From a virus, in the IMG/VR virus record IMGVR_UViG_3300033151_000074, positions 1-44,073 of that record: a stretch of DNA of 44,073 bases; one strand, given 5' to 3'. Below the pieces are notes generated by a model that saw only the letters and a list, made by a program, of their open reading frames with translations, searched no databases and was not told the origin of the DNA. The position numbers were made by a program, and so were the translations under genes. Positions 15,370 through 38,175 of the stretch are shown here, piece by piece. Within the stretch, counting starts at the first letter, position 1. Each line of letters begins with the position of its first letter.

Positions 15370-16083
15370 CTATGTGTATGGTCCGGTTGGAACGGGGAAG
15401 GTCGTGTCCGTGTTTGCTGCTACGCCCTTTAGGACTCTTAATTCATCTATCCAGCCATTGAGATAGTAAGTCGAAGAAGATCTCATTATTCCTATATCCA
15501 AAGGTTGTCCACCATCCTCAAGCGCCCCTGAAATAGACGAAGCCGAACCTATCTCTGAGCCATCTATAAACGCTCTCAGGAAATCTCCGTCCCTCACCAA
15601 AGCTACGTGATACCATGTGTCAACAACTGGAGACCATGACCAAGAGTGCTGCTTGGTCCCGCCAGCACCAGTATCGGTAAATACGCCTAACGCCGAAGCT
15701 CCGTCTGCATAAACGAGATTAAACGACACGTCATAAGGGCTGGCCTGGAACTGAGAGACAAAAGGGTTCTGGTCAGCAAAAGAGTTAAATCTAGCCATAA
15801 GCTCAATAGTGAACTCGCCACTTCCGAATTGCCAGTCCGGGCTGTCGATAACGTCAACATAGTCAGAATTACCGTCAAGCAATAGTGAAGCTCCACCAAA
15901 GACACTCTGCGCAGTGTCGATCTGGGCGGTGCCGTTTGCTACGGGAGAATGTCTTCCAGTGGCATCCGTAATAGTGGTGGACTCATCTGCACCGTCACAA
16001 TGCAGAAGGAGTACCGACCCCACGCCACCGGGAGGTGTATCGTCAGCAAAGTGCTTCCTGCGATGTTTAAGTATATGATTCAT
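15370..16083 (-). CDS. LamG/concanavalin-like domain protein
   Basis: A 237-residue protein. After a basic N-terminus (ILKHRRKHFADDTPP) comes one LamG-type jelly roll: LLLHCDGADESTTITDATGRH, FGGASLLLDGNSDYVDV, FTIELMARF, WYHVALVRDGDFLRAFIDG and YLNGWIDELRVLKG. Such domains usually bind glycans, so a receptor-binding or virion-decorating role fits. ATG at 16083 follows the stop of the previous gene as TAAAATG; a GTG at 16095 is an alternative. It belongs to the fibre gene group. Confidence 0.8.
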   Translation of the reverse strand: MNHILKHRRKHFADDTPPGGVGSVLLLHCDGADESTTITDATGRHSPVANGTAQIDTAQSVFGGASLLLDGNSDYVDVIDSPDWQFGSGEFTIELMARFNSFADQNPFVSQFQASPYDVSFNLVYADGASALGVFTDTGAGGTKQHSWSWSPVVDTWYHVALVRDGDFLRAFIDGSEIGSASSISGALEDGGQPLDIGIMRSSSTYYLNGWIDELRVLKGVAANTDTTFPVPTGPYT

Positions 16084-16084
16084 T

Positions 16085-16978
16085 TTACCATTCACTCACT
16101 ACGTTAGTCTTCTTGTATTGAACAAGAACGCCAAACAGCCAGGCGTCTTCCGCCATGTCATCAGTTCCATCAGTGTTGCGATAGACCTCGAAAGGTATTA
16201 GATCATCAAGAGCCGGAGTGCCACCAACAGTCAGGGCAGCAGTTGCCGCCGTGAGCTGTAAGTCAGCGCCGTCATTAGCGAGCACCGCGTCACTTACGGT
16301 CACAGGTGTACCCAATGCAGCATCAATGGCGTCGTCGTCACTCAGAGCACCAGCCTTGATCCCCCACTCAACCGTATCGGCTATGCTTGAGCCAGTCGCA
16401 GAGCTCCAGAAGAACTTGACCTTAACCGTGCTGCGATCCCAACTCTCAGGCATCACCAGCTTGAACTGTGCTCGCTCCTCGGTAGCACCAGTATCGAACG
16501 CTAAGTAATCCACGTCGATATCGTTGGTGCCGTATTCATTGGTTCCGGCCTCAGCCCCATCGGTAGTGCAGGGAATCATTGCCGCAGCGTCAACATAGAG
16601 CGTATCGTAAGATGCTGCCACACCGGTTGCTGCCCCATCGAATGCGAGATACCAACCGGCTTGGGAATCGTAAACAAGTGTCTGTCCGGCATCGAGTGAC
16701 TGCTTGACCAGAATACGCTCAGTCGCGCTCGCATCAGTCTTCACAGTAACGTCGTGTGTCGCAGAGTCAGCGTTATAGATACTCACGTACCGGACAAGCC
16801 TTTGGCCTGCAGCAGGAGCCGCTACCATGTCCACGTCAGTCGTGTCGTTGGTAACTCCATTGTTCTGCCCAACAACATCGGCAGTGGTGTCAATATACGA
16901 CGCAACGAAGTCCATCTCGGTTGCTGCTGCATCACCAAGGACTACCTGTAACTTGGTGGTGGTTGGTAATACAATCAT
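16085..16978 (-). CDS. Phage structural protein, fibre-associated, 297 aa
   Basis: A beta-rich Ala/Thr/Asp-rich protein. Residues 1-115 look like a small phage beta domain (ARYVSIYNAD and VLVKQSLDAGQTLVYD type strands), a motif common in phage structural proteins. Residues 120-297 hold another sandwich with WDRSTVKVKFFWSS and WGIKAG, like carbohydrate-type folds. ATG at 16978 has GGAG six bases upstream. It lies between a fibre-like gene and the LamG gene. A short fibre or fibre adaptor is the likely role. Confidence 0.65.
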   Translation of the reverse strand: MIVLPTTTKLQVVLGDAAATEMDFVASYIDTTADVVGQNNGVTNDTTDVDMVAAPAAGQRLVRYVSIYNADSATHDVTVKTDASATERILVKQSLDAGQTLVYDSQAGWYLAFDGAATGVAASYDTLYVDAAAMIPCTTDGAEAGTNEYGTNDIDVDYLAFDTGATEERAQFKLVMPESWDRSTVKVKFFWSSATGSSIADTVEWGIKAGALSDDDAIDAALGTPVTVSDAVLANDGADLQLTAATAALTVGGTPALDDLIPFEVYRNTDGTDDMAEDAWLFGVLVQYKKTNVVSEW

Positions 16979-23339: not shown

Positions 23340-24761
23340 TTAGTAAGTCACCTCCATCGAAACACTTTCCCTCTCGATGCTTGCGGCATAAGTGTGTTCG
23401 CCAACTCCTTGATATGTCGAGGAGAGCACAATGTTCGGTCCCGTAACCGAAATCCATACATAGACATCATTGCCACCCATGCTGGCCAGGAAGGTTTCTG
23501 CATCCAATTCTATCTCTATAACAACTGGTGTTGCAGGCACCCCTCCTGCAGTAATCTGAAGCGCATTTAGCTGAGCAAAGGTCATGCTCACGTCTGCCGT
23601 TGCAGCTCTTACCGCAGCGCCGTTTGCGTAAACAGTACCAGACTCGCTTAGGGTGATACTAAAAGTATGCTTGCTGCATTCGGTTGACGGAGACCATGCA
23701 GCCGTACCGGGGTCTGCGTCGTTGTAGATTGCAGACGCGATTACCTTCAGCGTCAGGTTCTTTCCGTCATCCCTCTCGTCGTTGGTAATGCTGAATTTCA
23801 TCCGGCCAGCAGTCCAGTATGAGAAGAAGTGTATCTTGGTATCGGCAGCGACGTTGCCAACATAAAACCTTGCCGGATTATTCTGAACGGGAGTGTCTGA
23901 AAGAGTGGTGTCTGCATCGCCAACGGCCAGAGCGTCTGTTTGCACACCCAGCCAGTATCCATACGCGGCAGGGTCGGTGTCTTCTACGCCAGGATAAGCC
24001 ACGCTGTCGTTACCGTAATATGATCCATATCCGTCATAGGTAGCAACGGTTGCAGCCTTGCCTATCGTAAACGTTCCTGTTGACGAAGACACGAGCCCGA
24101 TTGCCGATGCGGTTATCTTGGCGGCGGTCACCTCGGCCAATCCCCCGCCATCTACGGTAAGGTTTCCGGACCACTCCCCAGCAACCAGATCAACATCTCG
24201 TGTCTTGGCATCCGGATTCGGTGTTGTGAACTTGTCATCAGCATGGGCGCCAACGAGGGTAAGCGTTACGGTATCGGTATTGCCTGTCAGAACATTTCCG
24301 TTGCCGTCTTGTGCCTGAACCGTGAACGGGAATGCTGTACCCCTTCCAACAGTCGTCGGCTCAACCGTAATCACAAGCGTCTGAATAAGCACTGACCGCT
24401 GCATCAAGCCGTTCGGAGTGTAGTCCCTGCCAGTAATGCCTTTGATAGCATTCTCACTCAGGATAGTGCTCACGTAAACAAAGATCGGGGAGATGTTGGT
24501 ATCGGATAACTCAAGCTCGAAGTCTGCGATCGTGACCGTGCCATTGGTGAGAGTAGCCGTTGCATGGTTAGCGGTGACAGGCGAGTTGTTGCCGTCCTCT
24601 ACGCCAATGCCAACCAAGCAGGCCGTGTATCCAGTGTCGGTATCGCCGTCAGCATCTTGAGCAGTAATGACAAGTGGTGCCACGACGCCGTCCTCGAACA
24701 CGTCTGCAGTCGTGGTGATCTCCAGGTCATCTAAGCCAAGAATTGTAATCTCGTTACTCAA
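23340..24761 (-). CDS. Ig-like beta-domain virion protein, 473 aa
   Basis: A Thr/Val/Ala-rich protein made of beta-sandwich segments. Residues 10-90 and 110-220 look like bacterial Ig-like repeats (LVITAQDADGDTDTG and FTVQAQDGNGNVLTGNTDTVTLTL share the QDxxG spacing). The C-terminal 240 residues form another beta domain (MKFSITNDERDDGKNLTLKVIAS, VIEIELDAETF). TTG at 24761 is the start, with GAGGAGGT seven bases upstream, and it overlaps the upstream stop. It may form surface decoration on the tail hub. Confidence 0.7.
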   Translation of the reverse strand: MSNEITILGLDDLEITTTADVFEDGVVAPLVITAQDADGDTDTGYTACLVGIGVEDGNNSPVTANHATATLTNGTVTIADFELELSDTNISPIFVYVSTILSENAIKGITGRDYTPNGLMQRSVLIQTLVITVEPTTVGRGTAFPFTVQAQDGNGNVLTGNTDTVTLTLVGAHADDKFTTPNPDAKTRDVDLVAGEWSGNLTVDGGGLAEVTAAKITASAIGLVSSSTGTFTIGKAATVATYDGYGSYYGNDSVAYPGVEDTDPAAYGYWLGVQTDALAVGDADTTLSDTPVQNNPARFYVGNVAADTKIHFFSYWTAGRMKFSITNDERDDGKNLTLKVIASAIYNDADPGTAAWSPSTECSKHTFSITLSESGTVYANGAAVRAATADVSMTFAQLNALQITAGGVPATPVVIEIELDAETFLASMGGNDVYVWISVTGPNIVLSSTYQGVGEHTYAASIERESVSMEVTY

Positions 24762-26398
24762 GACAATACCTCCTCAGCATAGAACGCAAGGTCGGAATAC
24801 TTCGGAGTGAAGTAGTCTTGGGTTGCAGTGATGTAAGTGACGCACTGGACAACAATGTATCCGGCGCCAGCAAAGAATGCCCCTGCAGGCGTGAAGTTAG
24901 ACGTGAGAGCAATCTTGTCACCCTCAACCCAATCCTCGCCCTCGCAGTAGTATAGATAGTTAATGTCTGGATCATCTTGACCGCCAACGCTTACACCGAT
25001 CAGTTCTACGCGACCAGTGAACGTCGTGTCCAGATCCTCAGCGATCGCATCCTTGGCCGTGACCTTCAGATAGTACGTGGTGCCACACAGGTTGTTACCA
25101 AGAATAGTCTCGGCCACTGATACGACATCGCCAGCCTCGTCAACACACTCGACCGTGAAGATCGTGTCTGGCTTGAATACGTCAACCATGCCGACATGCG
25201 CGGTAATCGGTGAGTCTGGCACGTAGGCCCTCATGCTGACGGTTTCGCCAACAGAGGTTGCCAGCGTCAGCGTAAGGTCTGAGAATGTCGCAATGGTTGA
25301 GTCGGCATTAAGGACTCCTGTAATCTCGCTGAAGTTGTCGGTGACGTTGCTCGTGGAGTTGCTGACAACCAGTTTCGGTACTGCCGGGAACTCTGCAAGC
25401 GTCTCTGAGCCAAGTTCGTAGCAGCTCACCACCACGTCAAATGTTTGCCCGGACTGCTGAGCTCTTGGGTTCGGATAGAACAACCAGTCAGGTTCCGGGT
25501 CTTCAATGTCCTCGGCATCAACTACGGTAATCTGTGCCGATGCGGTAGCGAAGTCAGCTTCACCAAATGCATCGAACGTGTAGTTGTTGATAGCCAAGGT
25601 TGGAGTGAATGTCTTCACGCCGCTTACACGGAGATTTTCCGTGGTGCCATTCGGGTAGTACAGGATTACGGAACTGGCGTTAGTGCTGTACCAACGAATC
25701 TCTGCAGTGTCTCCAACCGCGATCTCTTGTGTAGTCGGAGTTACGACTATCGTTGGAGGTAGCGGATCCTCCGGTGGTGGCGGTGGTGGTGGGGGAGGAG
25801 GAGGTGGCGGTGGTGGCGGCGGCGGGTCATCCTCGCCCTTGTCATCAAACTCCTTGATGGTTAGCATAAGCGAAGAGTTGTATTCCAGCCCATCCCCACC
25901 AGTACCCCATACCTGAACGGTATAGGTGCCGGGCACGATGTAGTCATGAGTGATTGATGTGGATGATCCAGTGTAGTCAGTATCTCTGCTCTCGCCATCG
26001 TAAGCAACGTCCCAGTTCAGGGTTGATATGCTGAGGTCAGATGAACCGTAAGAGATGAACGTGATCTCAAGTGGGTTGGCAGCGTTGCAGAACAGTTCCT
26101 CGTTCGGGCTGGCAATGATTTTAAGGGCGTAGTCGCCATCTGTCCCTGGCACCGGGTCAGCCCCAATTACGAAAGTCCTGCCGCCTTGAGCGCCACCAAG
26201 GATCGCAAACGGATCGCCGAACAGCCTGTCAGTGATCGGCATGAATCCATCGCGTGTATCCATATACCCCTCACGCGAATGAGTAATCATGTTGATCAGG
26301 TTTAGATGTTGGCCAAGCTTCAAGTCATGAACGTCGGTATACTTGTTGATGCCGCCGAACTTTGCCGTGACTACTTGTGCCTCTGCATTGTTAATCAC
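24758..26398 (-). CDS. Tail hub N-terminal strand fused to Ig-like modules and polyproline
   Basis: A 546-residue protein. Residues 10-60 (FGGINKYTDVHDLKLGQHLNL, REGYMDTRDGFMPI) look like the N-terminus of podovirus tail hub proteins, where a FGG...N...TRxGF pattern is usual. A PKD-like domain (ITHDYIVPGTYTVQVWG) comes next, then 18 prolines in a row, then Ig-like modules (TQEIAVGDTAEIRWY; VSCYELGS; VECVDEAGD). GTG at 26398 overlaps the upstream stop as GTGA with GGAG seven bases upstream. The hub core appears to be in 21575-23338, which suggests a split gene. Confidence 0.72.
   Translation of the reverse strand: MINNAEAQVVTAKFGGINKYTDVHDLKLGQHLNLINMITHSREGYMDTRDGFMPITDRLFGDPFAILGGAQGGRTFVIGADPVPGTDGDYALKIIASPNEELFCNAANPLEITFISYGSSDLSISTLNWDVAYDGESRDTDYTGSSTSITHDYIVPGTYTVQVWGTGGDGLEYNSSLMLTIKEFDDKGEDDPPPPPPPPPPPPPPPPPPEDPLPPTIVVTPTTQEIAVGDTAEIRWYSTNASSVILYYPNGTTENLRVSGVKTFTPTLAINNYTFDAFGEADFATASAQITVVDAEDIEDPEPDWLFYPNPRAQQSGQTFDVVVSCYELGSETLAEFPAVPKLVVSNSTSNVTDNFSEITGVLNADSTIATFSDLTLTLATSVGETVSMRAYVPDSPITAHVGMVDVFKPDTIFTVECVDEAGDVVSVAETILGNNLCGTTYYLKVTAKDAIAEDLDTTFTGRVELIGVSVGGQDDPDINYLYYCEGEDWVEGDKIALTSNFTPAGAFFAGAGYIVVQCVTYITATQDYFTPKYSDLAFYAEEVLS
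25773..25826. repeat. GGN trinucleotide tract encoding 18 prolines
   Basis: A run of 18 GGN triplets on the plus strand, read as 18 Pro codons on the minus strand. It links a PKD-like domain to Ig-like modules. Simple-sequence tracts like this can change length by slippage, here in whole codons when they change by three. Confidence 0.9.
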
Positions 26399-27042
26399 TT
26401 GCTGGCTCCAGGTAGAGAGAGGAACTGCTTCAGGGATCTTACAAAGTGGACATTCATACGCTTGAGAGAGGCCAGATGATCCTTGTACCGCGCCTCAGAT
26501 CGAGATACCAACCGTTGACGCTCCTCATCGGACTCAAGCCTGATTGTGCGTGCGTACCATACGAGGTAGTCAGCTATCGGGTTGGGGCCATCAGGAGTAT
26601 CGCCGTCAGCCGAGAGCTCTGTAGGTGCAATCTGGTAGCGCACAGTGTACGTCTCATCGCTTGCAGGGTAGAGGGCAATCTTGGCAAACCCCGTATCCGT
26701 GTCGATGCCGTCAAGGGCATAGGTGTTGGTGTTGGCATTGCCGATGCTTATCTTCTCGTCGAGCTGACGTTGGCGCGTCCTGGGGTTCACCGGCTTATCA
26801 TTGGATGCGTAAACCCCAAGCAGATGGATAGTGTCTTCCGGGAGAACGAGAACGGTGCCACTATCGGTAGCAGCTATCTCGGTCGTCAGGTCATTCCAGT
26901 ACCACGGATTGTTATTGTAGTACAGAGAACGCAAGCCCTCATTGATGGCAAAGCGAACGTTCTCATTCAGGTTAGCCACCGAAGCGCCAGCATGACTCTC
27001 CATCGACTTAACCCGGTTTACCATCGTCACCAACGTTTGCAT
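26395..27042 (-). CDS. Head-tail adaptor, P22 gp4-like / phage adaptor family
   Basis: A 215-residue protein with a mostly helical N-terminus (LVTMVNRVKSMESHAGASVANLNENVRFAINEGLRSLYYNNNPWYWND), a beta middle (LPEDTIHLLGVYAS, VRYQIAPTELS) and a C-terminal helix (RQRLVSRSEARYKDHLASLKRMN). This order is that of podovirus adaptors placed between portal and tail hub, such as P22 gp4 or T7 gp11. TAGGGAGCAACA precedes ATG. Its position before the hub gene supports the call. Confidence 0.78.
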   Translation of the reverse strand: MQTLVTMVNRVKSMESHAGASVANLNENVRFAINEGLRSLYYNNNPWYWNDLTTEIAATDSGTVLVLPEDTIHLLGVYASNDKPVNPRTRQRQLDEKISIGNANTNTYALDGIDTDTGFAKIALYPASDETYTVRYQIAPTELSADGDTPDGPNPIADYLVWYARTIRLESDEERQRLVSRSEARYKDHLASLKRMNVHFVRSLKQFLSLPGASK

Positions 27043-27055
27043 TGTTGCTCCCTAA

Positions 27056-27463
27056 TTAAATACTCATGGCAGTCATGGCTTCGCGTAGACGCAGAACCAA
27101 GGCACCTTCTCTGGTGTTACCCTTTGCACGCATCTGGTCGATCAGCGACTTCTCTTGTTCGGTCATGAGCCTGAATCCGTCTGGGCCATCTTGATTGTAT
27201 GACTTTTCCTTGCCCTTGAGGAACGCGATAATCTCCTCGTCGGCAGTTTCGTGCATTCCGTTTTTGATCTCAATACGCCGCCCTGGAGTCGCTTTGATTA
27301 CGCCGGTGATGGTTGGCCTATCGGTTGCTCCAACGATGGAGATGGTGCGGCTCTGGATCGGAGTGTTCCAAATGAACCGCGTGAGCTTGGCCTTGAGTTT
27401 GGAATCCTTCTCTTCGGCGGTCATCGGCTTCTCAGTCTTCACTTCGTTCTTCTTGTCTGACAT
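27056..27463 (-). CDS. Hypothetical protein between sugar genes and tail adaptor
   Basis: A 135-residue, Lys/Glu-rich protein. The first 30 residues are charged and probably disordered; residues 40-80 look beta-rich (RTISIVGATDRPTITGVIKATPGRRIEI). GAAGGAGAAGTAGA before ATG is a strong ribosome binding site. By position it could be a head completion or small virion protein. No family recognised. Confidence 0.7.
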   Translation of the reverse strand: MSDKKNEVKTEKPMTAEEKDSKLKAKLTRFIWNTPIQSRTISIVGATDRPTITGVIKATPGRRIEIKNGMHETADEEIIAFLKGKEKSYNQDGPDGFRLMTEQEKSLIDQMRAKGNTREGALVLRLREAMTAMSI

Positions 27464-27464
27464 T

Positions 27465-28469
27465 CTACTTCTCCTTCAGAATAAAACGGTCTTCTAAAAC
27501 ATCCATTGCCTGTGCAACGGCCTGATCCATGTTGAGGTAACTGTACGTCCCAAGTCTTCCAAGGAAGATCGTGTCTTCGTGGTCCTGCGCAAGCTTCTTG
27601 TACTGCTCATGCATCGCAGGGTTATCGCCAAACGGTTTGGGATAGTACGGTACGTTAGTGTCATCATGCTCTACCGGTGTCTCAATGGAGAGCACGGTCA
27701 ATCCTCTTGCCCTGCCATTCCAGTAGCCATGATCAATGCATCTCGTGTGAGGACTCTCCTCGCGACAGTCATTGACAACGGCACAAGGAAGTGGCTCAAC
27801 CCGGTACGCCCAGTCAAAGCTCAATGAGCGATAGCCGAGCTTGCCGTGGCAGTAGTTGAAATACGAATCAATCTTGCCGGTGAAGATAACCAGGTCACAC
27901 TGCTCTGCTCTCCACGCATTCTCCTCGACTCCAGTATGCACGGTAAGCCCCTTGCATATCTCCTGGAACATATACGAGTAGCCATGAGCGGGGATGCCCT
28001 GATACTTGTCCTGGAAGTAATCGCACGACTCCCCGACCTTACGCATCTTCAGGCGCCCCTTGACCTCTTCCGGCAGGTCAGAGTACTCGATACCCCACTG
28101 CTTCTTACTGTAGCCCTCGGTGACCTGCTGAACCATATGGTAGCTGAGGGTTTCATTCACGTTGCGGAAGGGAATCTGGATGAGGCCAAAGTCTGTCTCG
28201 GCCATGACCTTGTGACGGTAAGCCTTGAATGATGTGAACCGGTTAAGGAACGACCATACGCGCTCATCGTCAGTGTGGAATATGTGTGCGCCATAGACAT
28301 GCGCGATGCAACCGTGACGTGGCTCATCATAGCAATTGCCACCCACATGGCTCCGGGTGTCGTATACATGAACCTCTGAGCCTAGCTCCGAAAGAATTCG
28401 TGCTGCAGTCAGGCCAGAGATGCCGGCGCCGACTACTACTACTTTCTTGGGTACTATTTGGCCTGGCAT
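27465..28469 (-). CDS. glf: UDP-galactopyranose mutase, short form
   Basis: A 334-residue flavoenzyme that converts UDP-galactopyranose to UDP-galactofuranose. It has the FAD Rossmann motif VVGAGISGLTAARILSELG (residues 13-31), HVYGAHIFHTDDERVW, GYSKKQWG, YFQDKYQGIPAHGYSYMF, YRSLSFDW and the FAD-binding C-terminus FLGRLGTYSYLNMDQAVAQA. Bacterial enzymes have about 365-390 residues; here roughly 30-45 residues are missing between IPFRNVNET and GYSKKQWG, in the helical domain. The catalytic and FAD motifs are kept. Two glycosyltransferases lie just upstream. GGAGAGACA precedes ATG. Confidence 0.93.
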   Translation of the reverse strand: MPGQIVPKKVVVVGAGISGLTAARILSELGSEVHVYDTRSHVGGNCYDEPRHGCIAHVYGAHIFHTDDERVWSFLNRFTSFKAYRHKVMAETDFGLIQIPFRNVNETLSYHMVQQVTEGYSKKQWGIEYSDLPEEVKGRLKMRKVGESCDYFQDKYQGIPAHGYSYMFQEICKGLTVHTGVEENAWRAEQCDLVIFTGKIDSYFNYCHGKLGYRSLSFDWAYRVEPLPCAVVNDCREESPHTRCIDHGYWNGRARGLTVLSIETPVEHDDTNVPYYPKPFGDNPAMHEQYKKLAQDHEDTIFLGRLGTYSYLNMDQAVAQAMDVLEDRFILKEK

Positions 28470-29179
28470 TGTCTCTCCGTGACCTTGAAGTGTTCGCGCA
28501 CATACTCGTCGCCGTAAATGGTCTCGCTAAAGCTGCTGTCCTCGACGTGCGGAAGCTTCGCCGTGGGATAGATCACGCATGGATTGGTAATGTGACCGCA
28601 GCTAATGTTTGTCAGCACAGCGACCTTCATGTCAGCAACCTCAAGGTTAGCCTTCTTGTAAAAGAAGATGTCTTCCGTTCCGGCATTCTCAAGTGCGAAC
28701 CAAGGCATCGAGATGTTCTCGAACATGCTTACTCTCAGCAGGCACGCCCCGAAGCCGGTGGCCTTGCATTGATACGCCTTGCCAATGTCTTCCGCTTTCG
28801 GAGTCACTGGCTGGTACTTACCTTCCTCTTCGTCATGATCCATATAGATCAATGGGAAGTGTGGCTTGTTGCGCATACAATAGTTTCCGCTGACCGCATG
28901 GACATCTGGATTCTTGTTAGCAAAGTCAATCAGGATGTCTGGCATATTCGCAGGCCAGATCATGTCGGCATCGAGGAACAACAGGTACTCTGATCCGTTT
29001 TCGATAGCCTTCTCCACGAGCGCAGTTCTTGCGCCACAAATGAATCCATCAAACACCCATTCGGTTTCAATCTCGTGATCGGTGGTCTTTAGCGTATGCT
29101 TGAGCATTGCAGCATACGATGCCACCGTCGCGTTCTTTATGCCGCCATATGCAGCCATTGCAAAAGTTACTTTCGACAT
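28454..29179 (-). CDS. GT-A fold glycosyltransferase
   Basis: A 241-residue glycosyltransferase with the GT-A signature: FAMAAYGGIKNATVASYAAML at the start, YLLFLDADMIWP with the metal-binding DAD at residues 70-72, KATGFGACLLRVSMF, GTEDIFFYKKA and a later Cys-Gly-His near 194-196. This order is typical of inverting, GT2-like enzymes. It overlaps the UGM gene and is preceded by AGGAGAGAGC, so it probably works with UGM and the next transferase. The acceptor is unknown; a virion protein or surface glycan is likely. Confidence 0.85.
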   Translation of the reverse strand: MSKVTFAMAAYGGIKNATVASYAAMLKHTLKTTDHEIETEWVFDGFICGARTALVEKAIENGSEYLLFLDADMIWPANMPDILIDFANKNPDVHAVSGNYCMRNKPHFPLIYMDHDEEEGKYQPVTPKAEDIGKAYQCKATGFGACLLRVSMFENISMPWFALENAGTEDIFFYKKANLEVADMKVAVLTNISCGHITNPCVIYPTAKLPHVEDSSFSETIYGDEYVREHFKVTERQCQAK

Positions 29180-29187
29180 GCTCTCTC

Positions 29188-29985
29188 CTAGTTTACCTTC
29201 GTCTGCACTACGCTCTTCGCTTCAATCAAGTCCAGCTCGCTTCCGTCCATGCCAAAGAGATTCTGGAACATCTGGCATTGATAGTCGAGAGTGACATAGC
29301 TCGCCATATCCTTGTGAGCATCTGAGGCCCACAACATGTGAACCAATCCCTGCTCATCGTTCTTGAAAGCAGGCTCGGCAGATCCTTCAGCATTCGCAAG
29401 GCACTCTTCATACCACTTCTTGCAGAACTCGACCTCACCGATGAATGCTCCGGAGTTAAGGTAACGCCACTTGGTTGCGCCGTGATAAACTGCTTGGCGC
29501 TCCTCGTACTCCATGTAATCGCCTTTATAAATCTCTTTGTCAGGCCAGAAGTTTGTCTCTGCCCCGTACACAAGTTTGTAGTCTGAGAATTGCGATTTGT
29601 ATACCTCAAGAAGTCGCCCTGGGCTTTGCAGAAATACTGCATCCCATGCGTCGTGACCCATGACGTACTTGGTCTCGCACTTTTCGAGGTATTCGATCGT
29701 GAGAATGATTTGGTGGCGATACCATTCTTTAATACCGTGTCCGAGTATCTTTGCCTCACCGCCAGAACACATGCGCTGAAGGCTCCTGATGAGCGCACTA
29801 CCATGCGGATCATCCGACGTATCCCACGTAATGAACGAGAGGTCGTCTGGAATGTTCGCGAAGTTTGGCGCTGATGATTCAAAAGTCTTTTCCTCTAGGT
29901 ATTTCCAAAAGCTCCCGCCGATACATCCATTTGCGTGGATCGTACACGGCAGCGTTCCTGTATCTCTGTTTCTGACCATGAACAT
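29188..29985 (-). CDS. PLOD-type glycosyltransferase
   Basis: A 265-residue protein resembling the glycosyltransferase domain of collagen lysyl hydroxylases (PLOD/LH3). Shared features are HDAWDAVFL (residues 111-119), WRYLNSGAFIGE (173-184), KNDEQ (208-212) and LDYQCQMFQNLFG (233-245). Related stand-alone enzymes are known in phages and giant viruses. It would transfer a sugar to a hydroxyl of a protein or sugar acceptor. No Gly-X-Y collagen repeat is seen in the window. GAAGGAGTAGTTT before ATG is a good ribosome binding site, sitting after a strong hairpin. Confidence 0.85.
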   Translation of the reverse strand: MFMVRNRDTGTLPCTIHANGCIGGSFWKYLEEKTFESSAPNFANIPDDLSFITWDTSDDPHGSALIRSLQRMCSGGEAKILGHGIKEWYRHQIILTIEYLEKCETKYVMGHDAWDAVFLQSPGRLLEVYKSQFSDYKLVYGAETNFWPDKEIYKGDYMEYEERQAVYHGATKWRYLNSGAFIGEVEFCKKWYEECLANAEGSAEPAFKNDEQGLVHMLWASDAHKDMASYVTLDYQCQMFQNLFGMDGSELDLIEAKSVVQTKVN

Positions 29986-30021
29986 AAACTACTCCTTCAT
30001 CTTCTTCTACGACAATGCTAT

Positions 30022-30046
30022 GGGGGCAGGGCCACGCCCCACCCCC
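30022..30046 (-). promoter_or_regulatory. GC-rich hairpin upstream of sugar genes
   Basis: GGGGG at 30022-30026 pairs with CCCCC at 30042-30046 and the inner bases also pair, giving an 11-bp stem with two G-T wobbles and a three-base loop. No U-tract follows. It sits between the decoration-like gene and the first glycosyltransferase, so it may reduce or separate expression of the sugar genes from the highly expressed capsid genes. Confidence 0.6.
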
Positions 30047-30060
30047 GATAGCCTACTGAT

Positions 30061-30786
30061 CTACTGCGCTACTGGTGATGCACGATAGGACTTGCCTATC
30101 ACGTTCAGAGTACCGCCTGCGGTCTGTTGCTCGATACTGACAACAAGACGCTTACCATATCCGGGAGTGACGCCTTTGTCTGCAAGCACAGCATCAATCT
30201 CCGTGGACTGTATAACACTGGTAGCCTCAAGAGTCTCGGTATAGATCAAAGCGTCTGCCACACCACTCTTGCAGCCATAGACATTTAGCGTGTTCGTGCC
30301 GGAGCTATTGGTTGCAGTGAAGTTGATGGCGTTCACTTCGTTCATATAGGTGCTGTCGTTGACCAGACCATCATTAGCAAGGAACTTCCCGTACTGAATG
30401 GATCCAACAACGGCGGCAGCAGTGGACGAATAGTTCACTGCAACACCTTGAGAGCTAGTGGCAACAGCAGCGGCAGCAATACCGAAGCTTCCGGTAGCCA
30501 GTGCTTTGCTCTCAATTGCGTCAACAGCGACGCATTCCCAGTTCTCAAGAGCGTTGACTGCGGCCTTCATCAGAGTGACGGTTGCGTAGTCAGCGTATGC
30601 AAGAGAAGCGGTGGTGGTGGCATCATTTACCAACTCAACACTGGTAGCAGTGACCGCGACGGTGCCGGTTGCCGCGTCCGTATCAGTGTGACGGATACGA
30701 AGCGGAATGGCGCTCGTCAAGGTGTTTGCCTTGGTGGAGGTTGGTGCAAGAGCCTTGTGTTCCTCAATTAGTTTAAGACTTGACAT
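30061..30786 (-). CDS. Capsid-associated (decoration-like) protein
   Basis: A 241-residue Ala/Thr/Ser/Val-rich beta protein, low in charge, directly downstream of the major capsid gene. Repeated short strands (TGTVAVTATSVELVND, TLNVYGCKSG, LVVSIEQQTAGGTLNVIGKS) fit a head decoration or head fibre protein. GAAAGGTAACAT before ATG is the ribosome binding site. Being next to three sugar genes, it is a candidate acceptor for glycosylation. Family not identified. Confidence 0.68.
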   Translation of the reverse strand: MSSLKLIEEHKALAPTSTKANTLTSAIPLRIRHTDTDAATGTVAVTATSVELVNDATTTASLAYADYATVTLMKAAVNALENWECVAVDAIESKALATGSFGIAAAAVATSSQGVAVNYSSTAAAVVGSIQYGKFLANDGLVNDSTYMNEVNAINFTATNSSGTNTLNVYGCKSGVADALIYTETLEATSVIQSTEIDAVLADKGVTPGYGKRLVVSIEQQTAGGTLNVIGKSYRASPVAQ

Positions 30787-30823: not shown

Positions 30824-32032
30824 CTACACGCCGATTCCATATGCGCGTGCGAAAGTCTCGACATTACGGAACTCTAATCCGTCCTCTACCTGCATTTCTT
30901 GTTTCGTTGCATCTTCACCTTCGCCTTGAAGGTTATCGCTTCCACGAGTTGTGGTGAGAGCGATGTCGGAACGTCCACCAAGACCACGACGCTTGAGGTT
31001 CTCAAGCTCGACGATCCATGCCTCGGCGTTCATTCCCCATTCGTTAGTCCATGCTTTATGAGGCATGATGTCCAGGGTGCCGTAGGTTGACTCGTAACGC
31101 TTGATGGTCAAACCGTATTCCTTGGCGCCTTGAACGGCCTGGAGCTTATTGTCAGCCCAGTCGTCGATGATCGACATGATGTTCCAGCCACAGATCATCA
31201 GCTTCTTGGAGCTACCATGGAAGAACGCATCCTTGAGGAAGTCGTCCCATTCGGCTTTGGTCATTGGGATTCCGGAGAAGTCCCGCTGAGGAGTCGAAGA
31301 ACCGCCAGCATCCATGAAGTATCGGAGGCCACCAGTGGTGGTGATCGTTCCAACGCCATTGGCAGTGGAGACGGTCTTGCTGCGTTTACCGAACAGGAAC
31401 TTGCGCTCACGCTGTTTCAGGAACTCACGGATGTTGCTTTCGCGAGCGAACTGAAGTGCGCCATCACCGTACAGGTCAATAGCCTGGACGCGGCCGGAAA
31501 CATCCCAACCTCTACGCATGTGCTCGATGTAGTTGTAATCGCGCTCGGGATCCAAGCTGACACGATCAACAGGACTCGAACCGGTTTCCATTGCAGTACC
31601 GAGGATCATGATGAGGTCGGTAGCAAGTTGAGCTGCGCCACCTGAACAAGTCGGGTAGTTGGGCTTAACTGCGATGGTTGCGGTGGTTGGCGTTGCTGTA
31701 ACAAACAGCTGCTCGCCAGTACGCATGTTGCGGAGCATCATGTTCTTGGTGATGTTTACATACTCACCGGACAGAACGACGATCTCTGCAGCGCCGGCAT
31801 CTGCACCGGCTGCGAGGGTAACGGTTGCGCTGAAGTCATCAGCCTGCATGAACTCGAATTTCTCTTCAGTGCAGGGCATGAAATCCAACTGGTCAACGAT
31901 GCGAGTGAACGGAGCGATGTCTGGCTCGACGCGCTTGATCAGATCACTCATGTCGATCTTAATACGATTACTAAGAATCGACTCTTGATCTACCTGGCCC
32001 TGTGAGGGTGAACCATATACAGGAGGAGGCAT
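30824..32032 (-). CDS. Major capsid protein
   Basis: A 402-residue protein placed right after the scaffold gene, with the usual HK97-fold size. The N-terminus (SILSNRIKIDMSDLIKRVEPDIAPFTRIVDQL) and the SYNYIEHMRRGWDVSGRVQ-like middle resemble SU10-type (DUF5309) capsid proteins. Later strands include LMICGWNIMSIIDDWA and AWIVELENLKRRGLGGRSD. AAGGAGATATACTT before ATG is a strong ribosome binding site, as expected for the most abundant virion protein. Family assignment is by reading, not by alignment. Confidence 0.85.
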   Translation of the reverse strand: MPPPVYGSPSQGQVDQESILSNRIKIDMSDLIKRVEPDIAPFTRIVDQLDFMPCTEEKFEFMQADDFSATVTLAAGADAGAAEIVVLSGEYVNITKNMMLRNMRTGEQLFVTATPTTATIAVKPNYPTCSGGAAQLATDLIMILGTAMETGSSPVDRVSLDPERDYNYIEHMRRGWDVSGRVQAIDLYGDGALQFARESNIREFLKQRERKFLFGKRSKTVSTANGVGTITTTGGLRYFMDAGGSSTPQRDFSGIPMTKAEWDDFLKDAFFHGSSKKLMICGWNIMSIIDDWADNKLQAVQGAKEYGLTIKRYESTYGTLDIMPHKAWTNEWGMNAEAWIVELENLKRRGLGGRSDIALTTTRGSDNLQGEGEDATKQEMQVEDGLEFRNVETFARAYGIGV

Positions 32033-32066: not shown

Positions 32067-32912
32067 TCAGTGCCAATCGGCGATCGAACCCTTGTAGGGA
32101 TGACCTCCGGTTACTGGACCTGTTTGTGTCTGACCTTGAACTGGTGCATTGGCGCGACTACCTGGCATCTGAGGCGGCAATCCGTTTGGACCTGGCTGTT
32201 GAGCATTGGGTACGGGTGCAAGCTGCTGCTGTTGTTGCTGCATCATCTGCTGAGCGTATCCTAATACCGTTGCCTGGTCTCCACCCATGCCGATGGCCAT
32301 TGCCTCAAATACTGACATTACTGGCATACCATCTGCAGAGTTACCTACCGCTGCCTCTTCCGCACGTTGTCGTTGATCGGGGGTCAGGTTGTGCTTATCG
32401 GCAAGAGCTCTAAAGTCACTCGCATACTGGTTAAGGTATGCCTGCTCTTGCTGCTGCTGGCTGTTCTGCGCATTAACCTTGTTCAATATCTCATTGGTCA
32501 TGGTCTCGCGCATGTAAGCAACGGCCTTCTCGCCGTCAGTCTTAGCCAGCTCGTTAAACGTATCCTGACTGAACTCGTCTGTCTGCGGTTGCTGTCCTAC
32601 GGGCTGCTGAGGATGCTGCACGTTGGCCGATTGATCGACAAGCCTTTGATTCAGCTCGGCGATCTCGCGATCCTTTGCGCTCTGCACCTTCCGCACCTCA
32701 TGCTCCAATACGCTACGTGGAACGAATTCACCCTGGACCGCTTCCCCCTCTGGAGGCTGCTGATCCGTTGGCTGACCTTCGACCGGTAGCGTAGCACCTT
32801 CACCTGGCGTTTGAAGCTGGCTCGGCTGTTGAGCTCCTGGATCCACTACGGGATCTGAAACCTGTGGCTGAGTTGGCTCCGGCCCTGGCTGTGTGCCTGT
32901 ATCTGCTGACAT
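32067..32912 (-). CDS. Scaffold protein
   Basis: A 281-residue Gln/Pro/Glu-rich protein. The first 80 residues are low complexity (TQPGPEPTQPQVSDPV), followed by coiled-coil helices (HEVRKVQSAKDREIAELNQRLVDQ; AVAYMRETMTNEILNKVNAQNSQQ) and a Q-rich, apparently flexible tail ending KGSIADWH. This is the layout of phage scaffolds encoded just before the capsid gene. ATG at 32912 has GAGGAGAAGAGT upstream; longer frames lack a site. Confidence 0.8.
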   Translation of the reverse strand: MSADTGTQPGPEPTQPQVSDPVVDPGAQQPSQLQTPGEGATLPVEGQPTDQQPPEGEAVQGEFVPRSVLEHEVRKVQSAKDREIAELNQRLVDQSANVQHPQQPVGQQPQTDEFSQDTFNELAKTDGEKAVAYMRETMTNEILNKVNAQNSQQQQEQAYLNQYASDFRALADKHNLTPDQRQRAEEAAVGNSADGMPVMSVFEAMAIGMGGDQATVLGYAQQMMQQQQQQLAPVPNAQQPGPNGLPPQMPGSRANAPVQGQTQTGPVTGGHPYKGSIADWH

Positions 32913-32923
32913 ACTCTTCTCCT

Positions 32924-33211
32924 CTACTTCAACTCTTCGTCGCACCTTTTTCTGGCAGCTTGGAACAATTCCAAGACACTCTCCAGAGTCTTCGTTGTTA
33001 CTACGTTACGGTTGTGATCCGACTTATTTGAGTCGCTCTCAATGGTATGGAACACTTTGCTCTTTCTGGCTGCGATCTCTTCCTTCACCTTCTCTACAAA
33101 GAAGTGCCATGCCGGATCACCTTCGATACTAGAAATATCTCCCTTAAGTCTCAGAGGATCACGCCCTCCGAGTAAATTGCGATTTCTGCTGTCCCATTGT
33201 ATGAATGACAT
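32924..33211 (-). CDS. Hypothetical protein between portal and scaffold
   Basis: A 95-residue charged, probably helical protein (WHFFVEKVKEEIAARKSKVF; LESVLELFQAARKRCDEELK). Small proteins at this position in podoviruses are sometimes portal- or scaffold-associated, but there is no motif to confirm that. It follows the portal stop within two bases, so translation is likely coupled. Confidence 0.68.
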   Translation of the reverse strand: MSFIQWDSRNRNLLGGRDPLRLKGDISSIEGDPAWHFFVEKVKEEIAARKSKVFHTIESDSNKSDHNRNVVTTKTLESVLELFQAARKRCDEELK

Positions 33212-33212
33212 A

Positions 33213-35270
33213 TTAACCCTTCTTCATCTGCGACTCTCGGTCTGCATCACTCTTCGGTGTTGCTGTTGGCATATTCATGTTGATACCGCTTGCGCCTGAC
33301 CCACCTCCACCGCCCGCCTGGGGTTGGGATCCGGCCATCAATGCGGCATTCTGCATCATGAACTGGATGTGAGCCTGTACGTGAGTCTGTGCTACCATTC
33401 CAAGCAAGGGGTTCTGCTGAATCATCTGCATAACCCTCGGGTCTTCAAACATCGACAAGTGGACTTGGTAGTGACGAGCGTCATTGTCATCTGGATCACG
33501 ACTGACTGGAACCCCGTTGATAATGTTTTCATTCTCTTGGAACGGATCATTTCCAATGCTGTTCTGCGGGAAGATCTCGTTGACATCCAGGCGACCCTTG
33601 TACTTATTCTCGAAGTACAGTCGCATGAGGGGAACACCGTCGCCATTCATCTGCTGAACTACTGCAGCCTCGTTGAGAGCTTCCTGTGTGGCTGACGTGT
33701 TCGATCCTGGGAAGCCAGTCGGCACGAGGTCTACGCCTGCAGTACCGGTGAAGTCCTTGGCCTCGATCGGACGGCTCTGTTGGCCATCGCCCATCGACGC
33801 ATTGAGCGGCATCCCCTCTTCACCAACTACGCGGAAGAAATCATGCGGCTGGAGGTAGAGCTTGTTGAGCGTGAGCGCGATCTTAAACGAAGACTGCATT
33901 GATGTCAGTGCGCGGTCCTCGATCGGAGAGAGCCTGGTGGCGCCCTGCTGCATGAGGTCACGAATGGCTGTTGCCGGCATCCCCGAGAACTGAGCTTGAC
34001 CACGAACCTCTGGAGTAAGCCCACTGATCTTGTCGGTTGCTCGCGAGGTAAGCCAGTCTATCACTTCAAGTAGCTGAGTAGCATTGACTGCCGGATGGAG
34101 TATCTGCGTGCCTTCAGGTCGGTGAGAGTGATGCCACTGACCAGCAACGATCTCTTGACCGGCCAGCTCCTCATCCCCGGTAATTCCGATTCCGAGAACT
34201 GCTGACTTAATGTTCACGGTCAGCAGCTCAAGGAGAGAATTACACATGTCCTGGGAACCTAGCATACGACTGACGAAAGAGTCGCCATGGATCTCACCTG
34301 TTTTCCGCACTGGAGCGAAGGTAGTGATCGGGAATGTATGCTTTATTTGGCGACTGGGGTCATCGAATATTTGTGGTTGCCATACGCCAATGACGAGCTG
34401 CTCATTAACAACGAGCACCCATCGTGGCTCTGGCTCTGTGTGCATCATGATGTCGAGGTAGACGCGCTGGTACTTGCCATCAACGCCGGCCTGCTTGGTG
34501 CTCATCTTCTCGCGAATGGTGTTGAACGGAACGTTTCCGGAAGTGTAGCCGTCAGTCCTGCGGAAGTGGTCAATCCTGAGTGCTGCCGTGGCGGTCATGT
34601 CTGAATCGCTGAACCACACGGTTGACTGCTCGCCATCGCGCATCTTGTATAAATCGCCAACGCTTATCTCGCGCCGAACGCACACAACCTTGATGTCTGA
34701 TTGATATTTGGCTTCGTCCCACCATACGTCGTAGTTATCCAGCACCTCTTCACGGCGCATGTTATTGGCTGCATCCCAAGTCTGCATACGAATGCCTGTA
34801 CCAAGCACGAGCGCGTTGTGGATGTAGTCGGAGATAACGTCGATGGTTGGGATCTCATTGGAATACTGGTAATTCAGGAACTCTTCGTTTCGGGTTGCGT
34901 CGTCGATGTCGTTCTTCTCGCGCCCAATGACCTCAACGAAAGTCGGGCCGTTACCTCTCATGCGGGTATAGAGGTGAGCGCCAATGAACTGGACGGCCTC
35001 ATACACCTGGGGAAGCAATAGGTTCAGTCGATCTACGCCCATCTCTGCGTTTGGATCATCAAACTGCGACGTGTAGTTGACGCTCTTGGTTCGGTTGCCA
35101 TCCTCGGCAAGCTCTCTGGCGTTATCGTAATACGCTTGAGCCTGTGCCCACTCCTCTTCTTTGGGTTGGCGTAGATCCTTCAGCCACTTAAATGTCTGCT
35201 TGTGGCTATCGTGGATCATCTTCAGCACGCCTGGCCAATCCTCGACACCTTCGGCACTAAGCTCTGGCAT
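33213..35270 (-). CDS. Portal protein, core (disrupted 5' end)
   Basis: A 685-residue portal, the dodecameric DNA gateway of the head. The core contains WPGVLKMIHDSHKQTFKWLKD, TYFDIMMHTEPEPRWVLVVN-like sheet, SFVSRMLGSQDMCNSLLELLTVNIKSAV and ending AQTHVQAHIQFMMQNAALMAG with a Gly-rich tail. An exact 38-bp duplication upstream shifts the frame, so the first 70 residues of the original protein are now in another frame. The ATG at 35270 lacks its own Shine-Dalgarno site but overlaps the upstream stop as TGATG, so it could be reached by termination-reinitiation. Confidence 0.85.
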   Translation of the reverse strand: MPELSAEGVEDWPGVLKMIHDSHKQTFKWLKDLRQPKEEEWAQAQAYYDNARELAEDGNRTKSVNYTSQFDDPNAEMGVDRLNLLLPQVYEAVQFIGAHLYTRMRGNGPTFVEVIGREKNDIDDATRNEEFLNYQYSNEIPTIDVISDYIHNALVLGTGIRMQTWDAANNMRREEVLDNYDVWWDEAKYQSDIKVVCVRREISVGDLYKMRDGEQSTVWFSDSDMTATAALRIDHFRRTDGYTSGNVPFNTIREKMSTKQAGVDGKYQRVYLDIMMHTEPEPRWVLVVNEQLVIGVWQPQIFDDPSRQIKHTFPITTFAPVRKTGEIHGDSFVSRMLGSQDMCNSLLELLTVNIKSAVLGIGITGDEELAGQEIVAGQWHHSHRPEGTQILHPAVNATQLLEVIDWLTSRATDKISGLTPEVRGQAQFSGMPATAIRDLMQQGATRLSPIEDRALTSMQSSFKIALTLNKLYLQPHDFFRVVGEEGMPLNASMGDGQQSRPIEAKDFTGTAGVDLVPTGFPGSNTSATQEALNEAAVVQQMNGDGVPLMRLYFENKYKGRLDVNEIFPQNSIGNDPFQENENIINGVPVSRDPDDNDARHYQVHLSMFEDPRVMQMIQQNPLLGMVAQTHVQAHIQFMMQNAALMAGSQPQAGGGGGSGASGINMNMPTATPKSDADRESQMKKG

Positions 35271-35518
35271 CAAGTTGGGATTGAACGCTGAGGGGATCTC
35301 GGGAGGGAGAGGCGCCGGATCTGGGGGAGGTGGCGCACCCTGTCCAGCAGCTTCTGCCTGGAGTGCCTGCTGCGCATACTGTTCTTGGATTCTGCCTGGA
35401 GTGCCTGCTGCGCATACTGTTCTTGGACTTGCTGATTCTCTGCGGCAACCGCTTCACGACGCTGCTGCCATTCGCCAAGATCGTATTTGCTGTCTGTACT
35501 GGCAATATTTGCTGACAT
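35270..35518 (-). pseudogene. Displaced portal N-terminus (frameshifted)
   Basis: An 82-residue frame starting SANIASTDSKYDLGEWQQRRE. Removing one copy of the 38-bp repeat restores a frame reading through QALQAEAAGQGAPPPPDPAP and on into LMPELSAEGVEDW, giving a 755-residue portal. As sequenced, the frame turns to a basic, foreign-looking tail and stops at TGA overlapping the portal ATG. Its start ATG overlaps the stop of the previous gene as TAATG. Either a real mutation or an assembly fault. Confidence 0.8.
35352..35427. repeat. 38-bp exact tandem duplication in portal gene
   Basis: Bases 35352-35389 and 35390-35427 are identical. The unit is 38 bp, two more than a multiple of three, and falls in the Gln-rich coiled coil of the portal N-terminus. 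It is the cause of the portal frameshift. Confidence 0.95.
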
Positions 35519-35988
35519 TAGGAGAGCACCCTCACGATTTCATCACGAGTAAAGCTACGGTTGGGGAGGTCATCGCCCTCGACATCCACACAGAAGTACC
35601 GACCTTTTGATTTGATCTTGTTGACGATGCCTGGAAGTGTAGTGTTTCTCAGGCTCACCCATACGCGAGAGCCGACACGAATCTTCATGTCGGGACGGTC
35701 TGGCACAATGGCCTTGAGGGGGGAGGCTTTCGGGAAATGCTTTTCTACTGGAACCTTGATGCGATTGGTAATAACGCCGCCCTGGTCAATGGTCACGTTC
35801 TTGGCCTCGATCTTGCGATACTTCGCGCTGTCGTTGTCAAGGTTGATGTGGAGAGCGGTCCTGTCGGCCCCGCCTGGATTCATGAGGAACACGCCGCCAA
35901 CCTCTTCGCCCTTATACTTGGCGATAACCCGGACACCCTCCTCAATCTTTGACCAGTTAATCTTCTTCTTACGGGTAAACAGGCTCAC
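35518..35988 (-). CDS. Hypothetical beta-rich protein between TerL and portal
   Basis: A 156-residue basic protein with two short barrel-like stretches, GVRVIAKYKGEEVGGVFLMN and IRVGSRVWVSLRNTTLPGIVNKIKSKGRYFCVDVEG, the second resembling SH3/Tudor-like folds. It overlaps the terminase stop by four bases and its stop overlaps the portal start, so it is co-translated with both. It may be a small packaging or portal accessory protein; no family recognised. Confidence 0.7.
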   Translation of the reverse strand: MSLFTRKKKINWSKIEEGVRVIAKYKGEEVGGVFLMNPGGADRTALHINLDNDSAKYRKIEAKNVTIDQGGVITNRIKVPVEKHFPKASPLKAIVPDRPDMKIRVGSRVWVSLRNTTLPGIVNKIKSKGRYFCVDVEGDDLPNRSFTRDEIVRVLS

Positions 35989-37718
35989 GATGCTCTCCTT
36001 GATAGAAATCTCTGGGTTCTTCTCGACGCTCCACGAAAACTGTGCATGGGCGCTTGCTTTGGCTTGTTGACTCTGCGGATCTGGAATACTTGGGTCTGGT
36101 TGGCTGCGGTATCGATCACATCGTCAGTGCCACCGCTCATGTACGTCATGGCCTCAAGTATCAACTGCTGCCGGCCAGATTCGACATTATTGCAGAAGTG
36201 GAGCCACCGGTTGGATGCCGGGGTTTCCAGCGTCATGATGCGGAATTCCTTCTTCTGGTTGGTGTTGTCCTTGAGGTCGAACTTCTTACAGCGAATGCCC
36301 ATCTCGATCTCGACGCGCAGAATGTCGGCCTCAAGCATAACGCCGGAGCCATGGGTCTCGATCGCCAGCCATGACCGTCTACGCTCCGTGCATAGGTCCG
36401 TGAAGTCACGATACCATCCGATTGCCTTGCGACAGTAGTTGCCCAGCTTCAGCTTGCCGTACTTCATTCTGGAGTACTCCAGGAAGAACCGGTGATTAAA
36501 GCGATCTGCCACGATCACCCACAGACATGCTGAGTCATTATGCTTCTTGTCGCCATATGCGGGGTCGCCAAACACTCCGACCTCGTAGGGGCCACGCTCG
36601 CCATCCTCTGGGAACGGGGCGATACTCCGGGCATTCTCCTTGTTGGAGATCCACTCGAAGAAACTCTGACCGTCACAGTCAAGTACGCTGTCGAACCATT
36701 CGCGCTCAAACGGTGAGTCTTCGTCAGATGTGGGGCGATTTCGGTACTGGGAAGAGAACATACGAGGGCCCATTGACAATTTAAGGTTCTCGAATGATTT
36801 ACGCGGAACGTCAATTACCTCGCCCTGGTACTCGACAGAATCGCCAACCTCGGTGTTCATGCAGCAGAACCGTACCTTGAAGATCGGGGTCTCGTTGCCA
36901 TCCTCGTCGGTGGTGACGCAATCCTCGACAATGGGATCCGCGACAATATTGTTCTTGTACGGGCTCTCGGTCTCGTTTCCACCAAACTCAAGGGGTAGGA
37001 TGTCGCCATATGGGTCGTTGATGTTATATCTGGTGAATGATAGCCAGACTTCGCACCCAGGATCAGCAACACAGCCAACCAGGTCCTTCAGGGACTCAAA
37101 TGCAGCCTCCATCTCCGGGATCGACTTGGCCATATGCTTGTCGATAAGGTCGTCCACCCACAGCACGGTGTCGAAATGGAAGCCGGTAAACGACGACTCC
37201 ATGCCGAAAGCCATGATTGACGGCTCGCCACCGATTCTCTTGGCATTCAGGGACAGGTTGGAGTTCTGATATGCCTCTTTGTTATTGACCGGGAACAACA
37301 GGTCGCCAAATAGCCTCTGGGCCTCATCTGACTTCCAGATATCGGACACCTGTTTGAGTGATTTCCTGGATAGGTCGCCCTTTGCGGCGAATATTGCCGA
37401 TCTGCCACTGGGCTTCTTGAAGTGGATGCGGGATAGTGCGCTGCCTAGAATCGTTGTCTTAAAGTGTCCACGAGGGATCGCGACAATCTTGATGGGGTTG
37501 TCTATTTCGCGCACTATCCGGTCCATTAATTCGCAAACTCGTTGATGAATCTCTCCGTCGCCCAGCATCCACGGCACTCTCCCGGTTTTGGCGTCATACA
37601 CGCTCAGCCCCATGGCCTCAGCAAACGACTGAGTGTCCGACAGGACGCGGGTACGCTCCTCGGCAAGAGATTTGGCGCTACTCAACGCCTGGGCAAATTG
37701 TGCTTCCGGTCTAACCAT
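35985..37718 (-). CDS. terL: Terminase large subunit
   Basis: A 577-residue packaging motor with ATPase and nuclease domains. Walker A is AIPRGHFKTT (residues 80-89) and Walker B is TVLWVDDLID (184-193, acidic pair 189-190). The RNase H-like nuclease begins at EVGVFGDPAYGDKKHND with its first Asp, followed by WLAIETHGSG and, near the end, TDDVIDTAANQ. ATG at 37718 overlaps the TerS stop; the longer frame lies wholly within TerS. The Arg/Ser-rich tail may bind DNA or portal. Confidence 0.93.
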   Translation of the reverse strand: MVRPEAQFAQALSSAKSLAEERTRVLSDTQSFAEAMGLSVYDAKTGRVPWMLGDGEIHQRVCELMDRIVREIDNPIKIVAIPRGHFKTTILGSALSRIHFKKPSGRSAIFAAKGDLSRKSLKQVSDIWKSDEAQRLFGDLLFPVNNKEAYQNSNLSLNAKRIGGEPSIMAFGMESSFTGFHFDTVLWVDDLIDKHMAKSIPEMEAAFESLKDLVGCVADPGCEVWLSFTRYNINDPYGDILPLEFGGNETESPYKNNIVADPIVEDCVTTDEDGNETPIFKVRFCCMNTEVGDSVEYQGEVIDVPRKSFENLKLSMGPRMFSSQYRNRPTSDEDSPFEREWFDSVLDCDGQSFFEWISNKENARSIAPFPEDGERGPYEVGVFGDPAYGDKKHNDSACLWVIVADRFNHRFFLEYSRMKYGKLKLGNYCRKAIGWYRDFTDLCTERRRSWLAIETHGSGVMLEADILRVEIEMGIRCKKFDLKDNTNQKKEFRIMTLETPASNRWLHFCNNVESGRQQLILEAMTYMSGGTDDVIDTAANQTQVFQIRRVNKPKQAPMHSFRGASRRTQRFLSRRAS

Positions 37719-38175
37719 TGTTTTCCAGTAGTAATTCGCCCATATAAGGCGCCATGAGCTCTTGGATCTGGACAATGACGTGCTCGGGTAGGGCAGTCAT
37801 GCGATCCAGGCTGAAGCTCAGAGACTCGTCTGTAATGATTTGCTTGACGTTCTGCCGAATGGCCTCTTGAATTAACGGCCGTAAATTCTTCTTGGCGTTG
37901 TTGGCCTGCAGATCGACACTCTTGCGAGCACGGTAGTACTGCTGCGCTGTATCGAACTCCGGGGCGTAGTGAGTCTCGTCATACCGCTCACGGAAGCCGA
38001 TAGCCTCATCAATCAGGCTCATATCGTGATCGACGATCTTCTGGATCACCTTGCGATCGTCGATGCACTTCAGGATCTCGTCATTGTGTGAGGATATGTT
38101 CTGGACAGTCTGCACGCTCGACTTGCCGCCAGTTACGTTTGCGTCTGGTGCCTTGCCTGGTAAGCGGTTGTGCAC
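37711..38175 (-). CDS. terS: Terminase small subunit (by position)
   Basis: A 154-residue mostly helical protein, first gene of the late operon and directly before TerL with eight bases of overlap. Helices include LKCIDDRKVIQKIVDHDMSLIDEAIGFRERYDE and KKNLRPLIQEAIRQNVKQII. GTG at 38175 follows a GGGGGT stretch; a TTG at 38193 is a less likely start inside the operator region. No HTH signature can be read with certainty, so the call rests on position and size. Confidence 0.7.
   Translation of the reverse strand: MHNRLPGKAPDANVTGGKSSVQTVQNISSHNDEILKCIDDRKVIQKIVDHDMSLIDEAIGFRERYDETHYAPEFDTAQQYYRARKSVDLQANNAKKNLRPLIQEAIRQNVKQIITDESLSFSLDRMTALPEHVIVQIQELMAPYMGELLLENNG

Follow-up and report, generated by a model that had tools for sequence, protein, structure and literature searches.

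Virion glycosylation by phage-encoded glycosyltransferases (GTs) is established for the mycobacteriophages Che8, Corndog and Myrna, as reported in PMC12363180 and PMC11256854. The enzymes concerned (Che8 gp110, Corndog gp38 and the GTs of Myrna) act on capsid or tail proteins (Freeman et al. 2023, as cited in these two papers), and the modification shields the particles from antibodies (PMC12363180, PMC11256854). These phages have another host and belong to another phage group than the virus considered here, which is uncultured. It is a 44-kb IMG/VR virus record (the window, i.e. the whole stretch of DNA that we analysed) of a phage with an SU10/P22-type portal, an SU10-type major capsid protein (MCP) and a terminase. 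Among its head genes lies a sugar block of three genes (27465-29985, minus strand) encoding, in order of transcription, a PLOD-type GT, a GT-A GT and a UDP-galactopyranose mutase (UGM).

In gene order, the mycobacteriophage Thibault (Omegavirus) resembles the window in that a homologous GT (gp11) stands directly after the MCP (gp10) and is followed by more GTs and a methyltransferase up to the connector (gp20), but its island as annotated contains neither a UGM nor a PLOD-type enzyme. The head-module GT of SU10-type phages (phrog_1574-like; MW202496, MW202462 and IMG/VR relatives) has the same active-site residues as the window GT-A and occupies the same place, the order in MW202496 and MW202462 being MCP, small gene, GT, adaptor. 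In those phages, however, the GT has no such companions; in the window it is joined by a PLOD-type GT and a UGM and has diverged from theirs (22-30% identity, long branch). LH3, the mimivirus proteins L230 and R699 and LH3-like phage proteins (CRP-6 gp58, S-CAM9) have the PLOD GT domain and both metal-binding Asp residues in common with the window PLOD-type enzyme. Unlike the LH3/L230 kind, the latter has no 2OG oxygenase, and its genome is without a detected one or a collagen-like fibre; its His motif is N-terminal, while that of LH3-like proteins is C-terminal. Finally, the serotype-conversion (gtrABC) module consists of a bactoprenol GT and a flippase with membrane segments and belongs to a temperate phage; the three block proteins have no membrane segment, and no phage integrase was found. 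What would set the window apart from the known cases is a virion-linked glycosylation cassette that also encodes the step making a galactofuranose donor, a proposal that our results support in part.

Position of the sugar block among the head genes

All genes of this region lie on the minus strand, in the order TerL (35985-37775), portal (33213-35273), scaffold-like gene (32067-32945), MCP of SU10 type (30824-32032; PF17236, 1.7e-30), decoration-like gene (241 aa; 30061-30786), PLOD-type GT (265 aa; 29188-29985), GT-A GT (241 aa; 28454-29179), UGM (334 aa; 27465-28469), the small gene g135 (27056-27463) and a tail or head-tail adaptor (26395-27042; weak match to phrog_2941, 0.01). The GT-A gene (from 28454) is thus placed between the MCP (from 30824) and the adaptor (from 26395). 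The preliminary description had reported a UGM, GT-A and PLOD-type block between the decoration-like gene and the adaptor, and both its coordinates and its gene calls are borne out by the open reading frames and profiles. Its flanks stand as well, with two amendments: g135, which it did not mention, separates the UGM gene from the adaptor, and the name "decoration" reflects position only, as the product of 30061-30786 has no family match in profile searches. Ser and Thr make up 22% of the residues of this protein, which, like the MCP, is a candidate acceptor.

The reading frames of all three block genes are intact, and each begins at a Shine-Dalgarno-like site (AAGGAG ahead of the ATG in the PLOD-type GT gene). 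The genes are tightly packed: there is a 16-nt overlap between those for GT-A and UGM, and g135 starts 1 nt after the UGM stop. A scan for promoters and terminators gave nothing better than shuffled sequences did.

The only close relative that we found, L082, is 52% identical in the portal, 53% in TerL, 31% in the MCP and 41% in the next structural protein. Its genes run MCP, decoration-like (positional counterpart, 23% identity), 70 bases, g135 counterpart (by position, 22% identity) and adaptor (about 38-39% identity), with the sugar genes absent; the adaptor is the conserved right flank of the insertion. In both phages the decoration-like gene is followed at once by a strong GC-rich intergenic hairpin (29991-30060 on the minus strand of the window, RNA MFE -31.3, z -3.9; L082:9878-9910, MFE -31.7, z -2.9), and the window block begins after it. 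Neither hairpin has a T-tract, and both may reduce downstream expression.

Because L082 has no block at exactly the same site, comparison of the two genomes indicates that the block is an accessory cassette inserted inside the late operon, or else one lost from L082. It had been stated earlier that the block lies in the late operon and not in an accessory region; the late-operon position holds, but the contrast is a false one, since the empty site in L082 points to an accessory insertion. As L082 does without the block, the latter is dispensable for assembly in this lineage. Its G+C content and codon use are close to those of the neighbouring genes and bear no mark of recent foreign DNA, so that the insertion would not be recent, or the donor genome would have been similar.

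The three predicted enzymes

The UGM is recognised by a match to PF03275 at 1.4e-45 (155.9 bits against a cut-off of 26.3), a match to the Klebsiella UGM in the PDB at 2.3e-57 and the glycines of the FAD-binding GxGxxG motif (G14, G16 and G19). We take the active site of the Klebsiella enzyme to comprise Y155, W160, R174, Y185, R280, E301, Y314, R343, Y349 and D351. Nine of these ten residues are kept in the window UGM (Y120, W125, R139, Y151, R243, E263, Y276, R305 and Y311), and the counterpart of D351 is N313, where other phage UGMs keep Asp. In the UGM tree the window protein forms the deepest branch, sister to short (~330 aa) viral UGMs with support 100/99, and sits on a long branch apart from the cellular UGMs. 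Judging from its family and conserved active site, the enzyme should make the rare donor UDP-galactofuranose. A contig binned as Flavobacteriaceae (L190) has a UGM nested in the viral branch and is probably a virus in the bin.

Pfam recognises the GT-A protein only below threshold (Anp1, 0.004; GT2, 0.012). In its family alignment L67, D72 and D170 are invariant and H196 is conserved in at least 90% of the sequences; the DxD, ED and His active-site positions are near-invariant throughout the phage GT-A family, with which the window protein agrees in homology, motifs and fold. Its AlphaFold model has a pLDDT of 81.8, and the nearest folds found by Foldseek are STIV A197, COLGALT1 and ppGalNAc-T, with TM about 0.5. 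Family alignment and the match of the model to GT-A enzymes establish this 241-aa product as GT-like. The family tree, with its long branches, does not fix its exact place beyond grouping it with the head-linked sequences at a split supported by 100/99. Single-sequence scans of viral contigs recovered no close relatives of the window MCP, of the GT-A or of the PLOD-type protein.

The PLOD-type GT matches PF25342 (GT_PLOD) at 4.9e-15 (55.8 bits against a cut-off of 27), and its PDB matches are mimivirus R699 (4.6e-6) and human LH3 (0.0035). Both aspartates of the D-x-x-D metal site, D112 and D115, are invariant in the family alignment. The profile match stops at position 198 of 246, twelve residues short of the C-terminus of the protein; the C-terminal part is missing, and the window enzyme lacks the H-x-N-G motif that PLOD-type GTs carry there. 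At residues 12-20 (29926-29952, minus strand) there is the motif LPCTIHANG, resembling the C-terminal P-C-x-Y-H-G-N-G of canonical phage PLOD GTs. The enzyme may thus be circularly permuted, with an H-x-N-G-like motif moved to the N-terminus. The N-terminal piece alone matches neither PF25342 in Pfam nor LH3 in the PDB, its motif scores 2.2 bits against a small HMM (about 10 of 2000 shuffles are equally good), and the AlphaFold model of the protein has a confidence of 51.

Related genes beside virion genes in other viruses

A profile search that did not select for genomic context yielded 80 viral loci with GT-A relatives. In 56 of them an SU10-type adaptor gene follows directly, in 44 there is an MCP gene no more than 1.6 kb upstream, and 59 show one or both. 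Collapsing the set at 75% identity left 24 groups, of which 12 were head-linked and about half had no head gene alongside by the criteria used here. In a thirteenth group, L107, which is nearest to the window GT-A by identity, a neighbouring gene product matches the C-terminal portion of a capsid/protease family. The Microcystis phage Mel-JY34 has an MCP homologous to that of the window (2.5e-12) with a GT directly after it. The gene orders compared here therefore indicate that a GT between MCP and adaptor is recurrent in distant lineages.

Comparison of 79 viral UGM loci revealed a second kind of association. Relatives of a 223-aa GT-like protein adjoin the UGM in 29 of them, mostly two in tandem, and UGM plus tandem often follows immediately on a large putative tail-fibre gene. 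The 223-aa proteins have no Pfam match, and the GT label comes from the look of their sequence and their place. The neck adaptor (Ad2) lies one to five genes from the UGM in 16 of the 79 loci, and sulfotransferases are near it in 17. UGM blocks are thus found among virion genes in more than one lineage, and their partner genes differ. In the environmental phages L014 (4165-9488) and L067, sulfotransferases and a UGM immediately precede neck genes (Ad2, Hc2), possibly reflecting sulfated virion glycans. Many phage UGMs belong to more extensive glycan islands, accompanied by GT10, GT11, GT17, GT25 and sulfotransferases.

The environmental phages L041, L049, L054, L079 and others resemble the window in having a UGM and two GT-like genes, here placed after it, in the midst of structural genes. 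Their UGMs are 35-41% identical to that of the window; their GT-like proteins (223-225 aa) give no BLAST match with window proteins, and they have no SU10 MCP. Looking for the three-gene block in other phages, as had been proposed, produced no second case: none of 50 GT-A-bearing records has a UGM, and none of 50 UGM-bearing records has an SU10 MCP, for which the same family search was positive in 32 of the 50 GT-A-bearing records. The PLOD-type domain was also absent from the 50 UGM-bearing records, a weak negative given that control genomes yielded no signal either. By these homology searches, the combination in the window is so far unique, seen once in the record sets examined.

PLOD-type GTs of phages have a virion association of their own. 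Proteins with GT25, PLOD-GT and 2OG-oxygenase domains, similar to LH3 and mimivirus L230, are encoded by Roseobacter phage CRP-6 (gp58, L083:5476-7245) and Synechococcus phages S-CAM9 (L102:3866-5710), S-PRM1 and S-8S55; L086-L101 also encode proteins of this kind. Their genes adjoin those of collagen-like tail fibres in which 55-125 Gly-X-Y repeats follow one another without a break, an arrangement which suggests that PLOD-type GTs in phages serve virion fibres. It is possible that these phages hydroxylate and glycosylate a collagen of their own. In the window there is no 2OG-Fe(II) oxygenase (PF13640) at E<=1 and no run of five or more Gly-X-Y in the virion genes tested, hence no collagen-like fibre. 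The acceptor in this phage must therefore differ from a collagen fibre.

Possible function of the block

The best reading of these observations, one we hold with slightly more confidence than doubt, is that late-expressed enzymes glycosylate a virion protein and that the glycan contains galactofuranose. In short, the particle probably bears a sugar coat of the phage's own making. The three-gene cassette inserted in the late (head) operon would probably be co-transcribed with the head genes, with the hairpin perhaps lowering expression beyond the decoration gene. UGM would convert host UDP-galactopyranose into UDP-galactofuranose, and a late protein synthesised simultaneously would receive from the soluble PLOD-type and GT-A enzymes a short glycan, probably with galactofuranose in it. 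Synteny and the protein-glycosylating nearest relatives suggest that the acceptor is most likely a capsid, decoration-like or adaptor/tail protein. The benefit might be protection or attachment. A virion target is favoured over lysogenic conversion or LPS modification because the nearest characterised relatives of the block GTs (LH3, COLGALT1 and ppGalNAc-T) glycosylate proteins, because none of the three block proteins has a membrane segment and no phage integrase was found, and because the synteny recurs. The preliminary description had proposed such a target, and it gains from the recurring GTs between MCP and adaptor and from the UGM and GT blocks beside tail-fibre or neck genes, but these do not name the acceptor.

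A bolder version, in which a head or connector protein receives a glycan built with phage-made UDP-galactofuranose, such glycosylation is a widespread habit of head operons, and the PLOD-type enzyme is circularly permuted, is tentative and, as a whole, rather doubtful. If true, virion glycosylation would not be peculiar to mycobacteriophages. Many environmental phages would have it as a recurring and interchangeable option in their head operons, with cassettes that would supply an unusual sugar donor as well. A GT between MCP and adaptor would then be a simple genomic marker for glycosylated virions, making it directly testable which phage particles are glycosylated, and why.

On the other hand, the cassette might add galactofuranose to the LPS core or capsule of the host late in infection and so block superinfection or adsorption of progeny to debris. 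The position in the late operon sets the timing only, and it also suits late surface modification; galactofuranose and UGM typically go with the surface polysaccharides of bacteria, many phage UGMs belong to the larger glycan islands mentioned above, and the LPS core is accessible to soluble cytoplasmic GTs. Nevertheless, the block has no flippase, polymerase, bactoprenol GT domain or membrane segment, the absence of an integrase leaves no sign of lysogenic conversion, and the relatives of the PLOD-type and GT-A enzymes are protein GTs, often beside virion genes. We thus consider a host-surface target unlikely, though it is the strongest of the alternatives.

It is also conceivable that a virion protein is glycosylated but the UGM is vestigial or serves another product, leaving the glycan without galactofuranose. 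Replacement of the otherwise kept Asp by N313 and the occurrence of GT-A relatives without UGM would fit this scenario, which the nine remaining active-site residues, the intact frame and the overlap of the UGM and GT-A genes make improbable. Least probable is that the GTs modify phage DNA bases, as GTs for hydroxymethylated bases, well known from phages, do, or a host protein in counter-defence or takeover, given the late-operon place next to the MCP, folds nearest to protein GTs and no base-modifying gene recognised among those scanned.

Two further proteins of the window deserve mention. The virion-type protein encoded at 24758-26398 combines a PKD-like domain with about 18 prolines in unbroken succession, in place of which its L082 counterpart has an acidic Pro-rich stretch. 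The product of 15370-16095 has a Laminin_G_3/ConA-like lectin domain, is related to baseplate-wedge/virion proteins and is a possible receptor binder.
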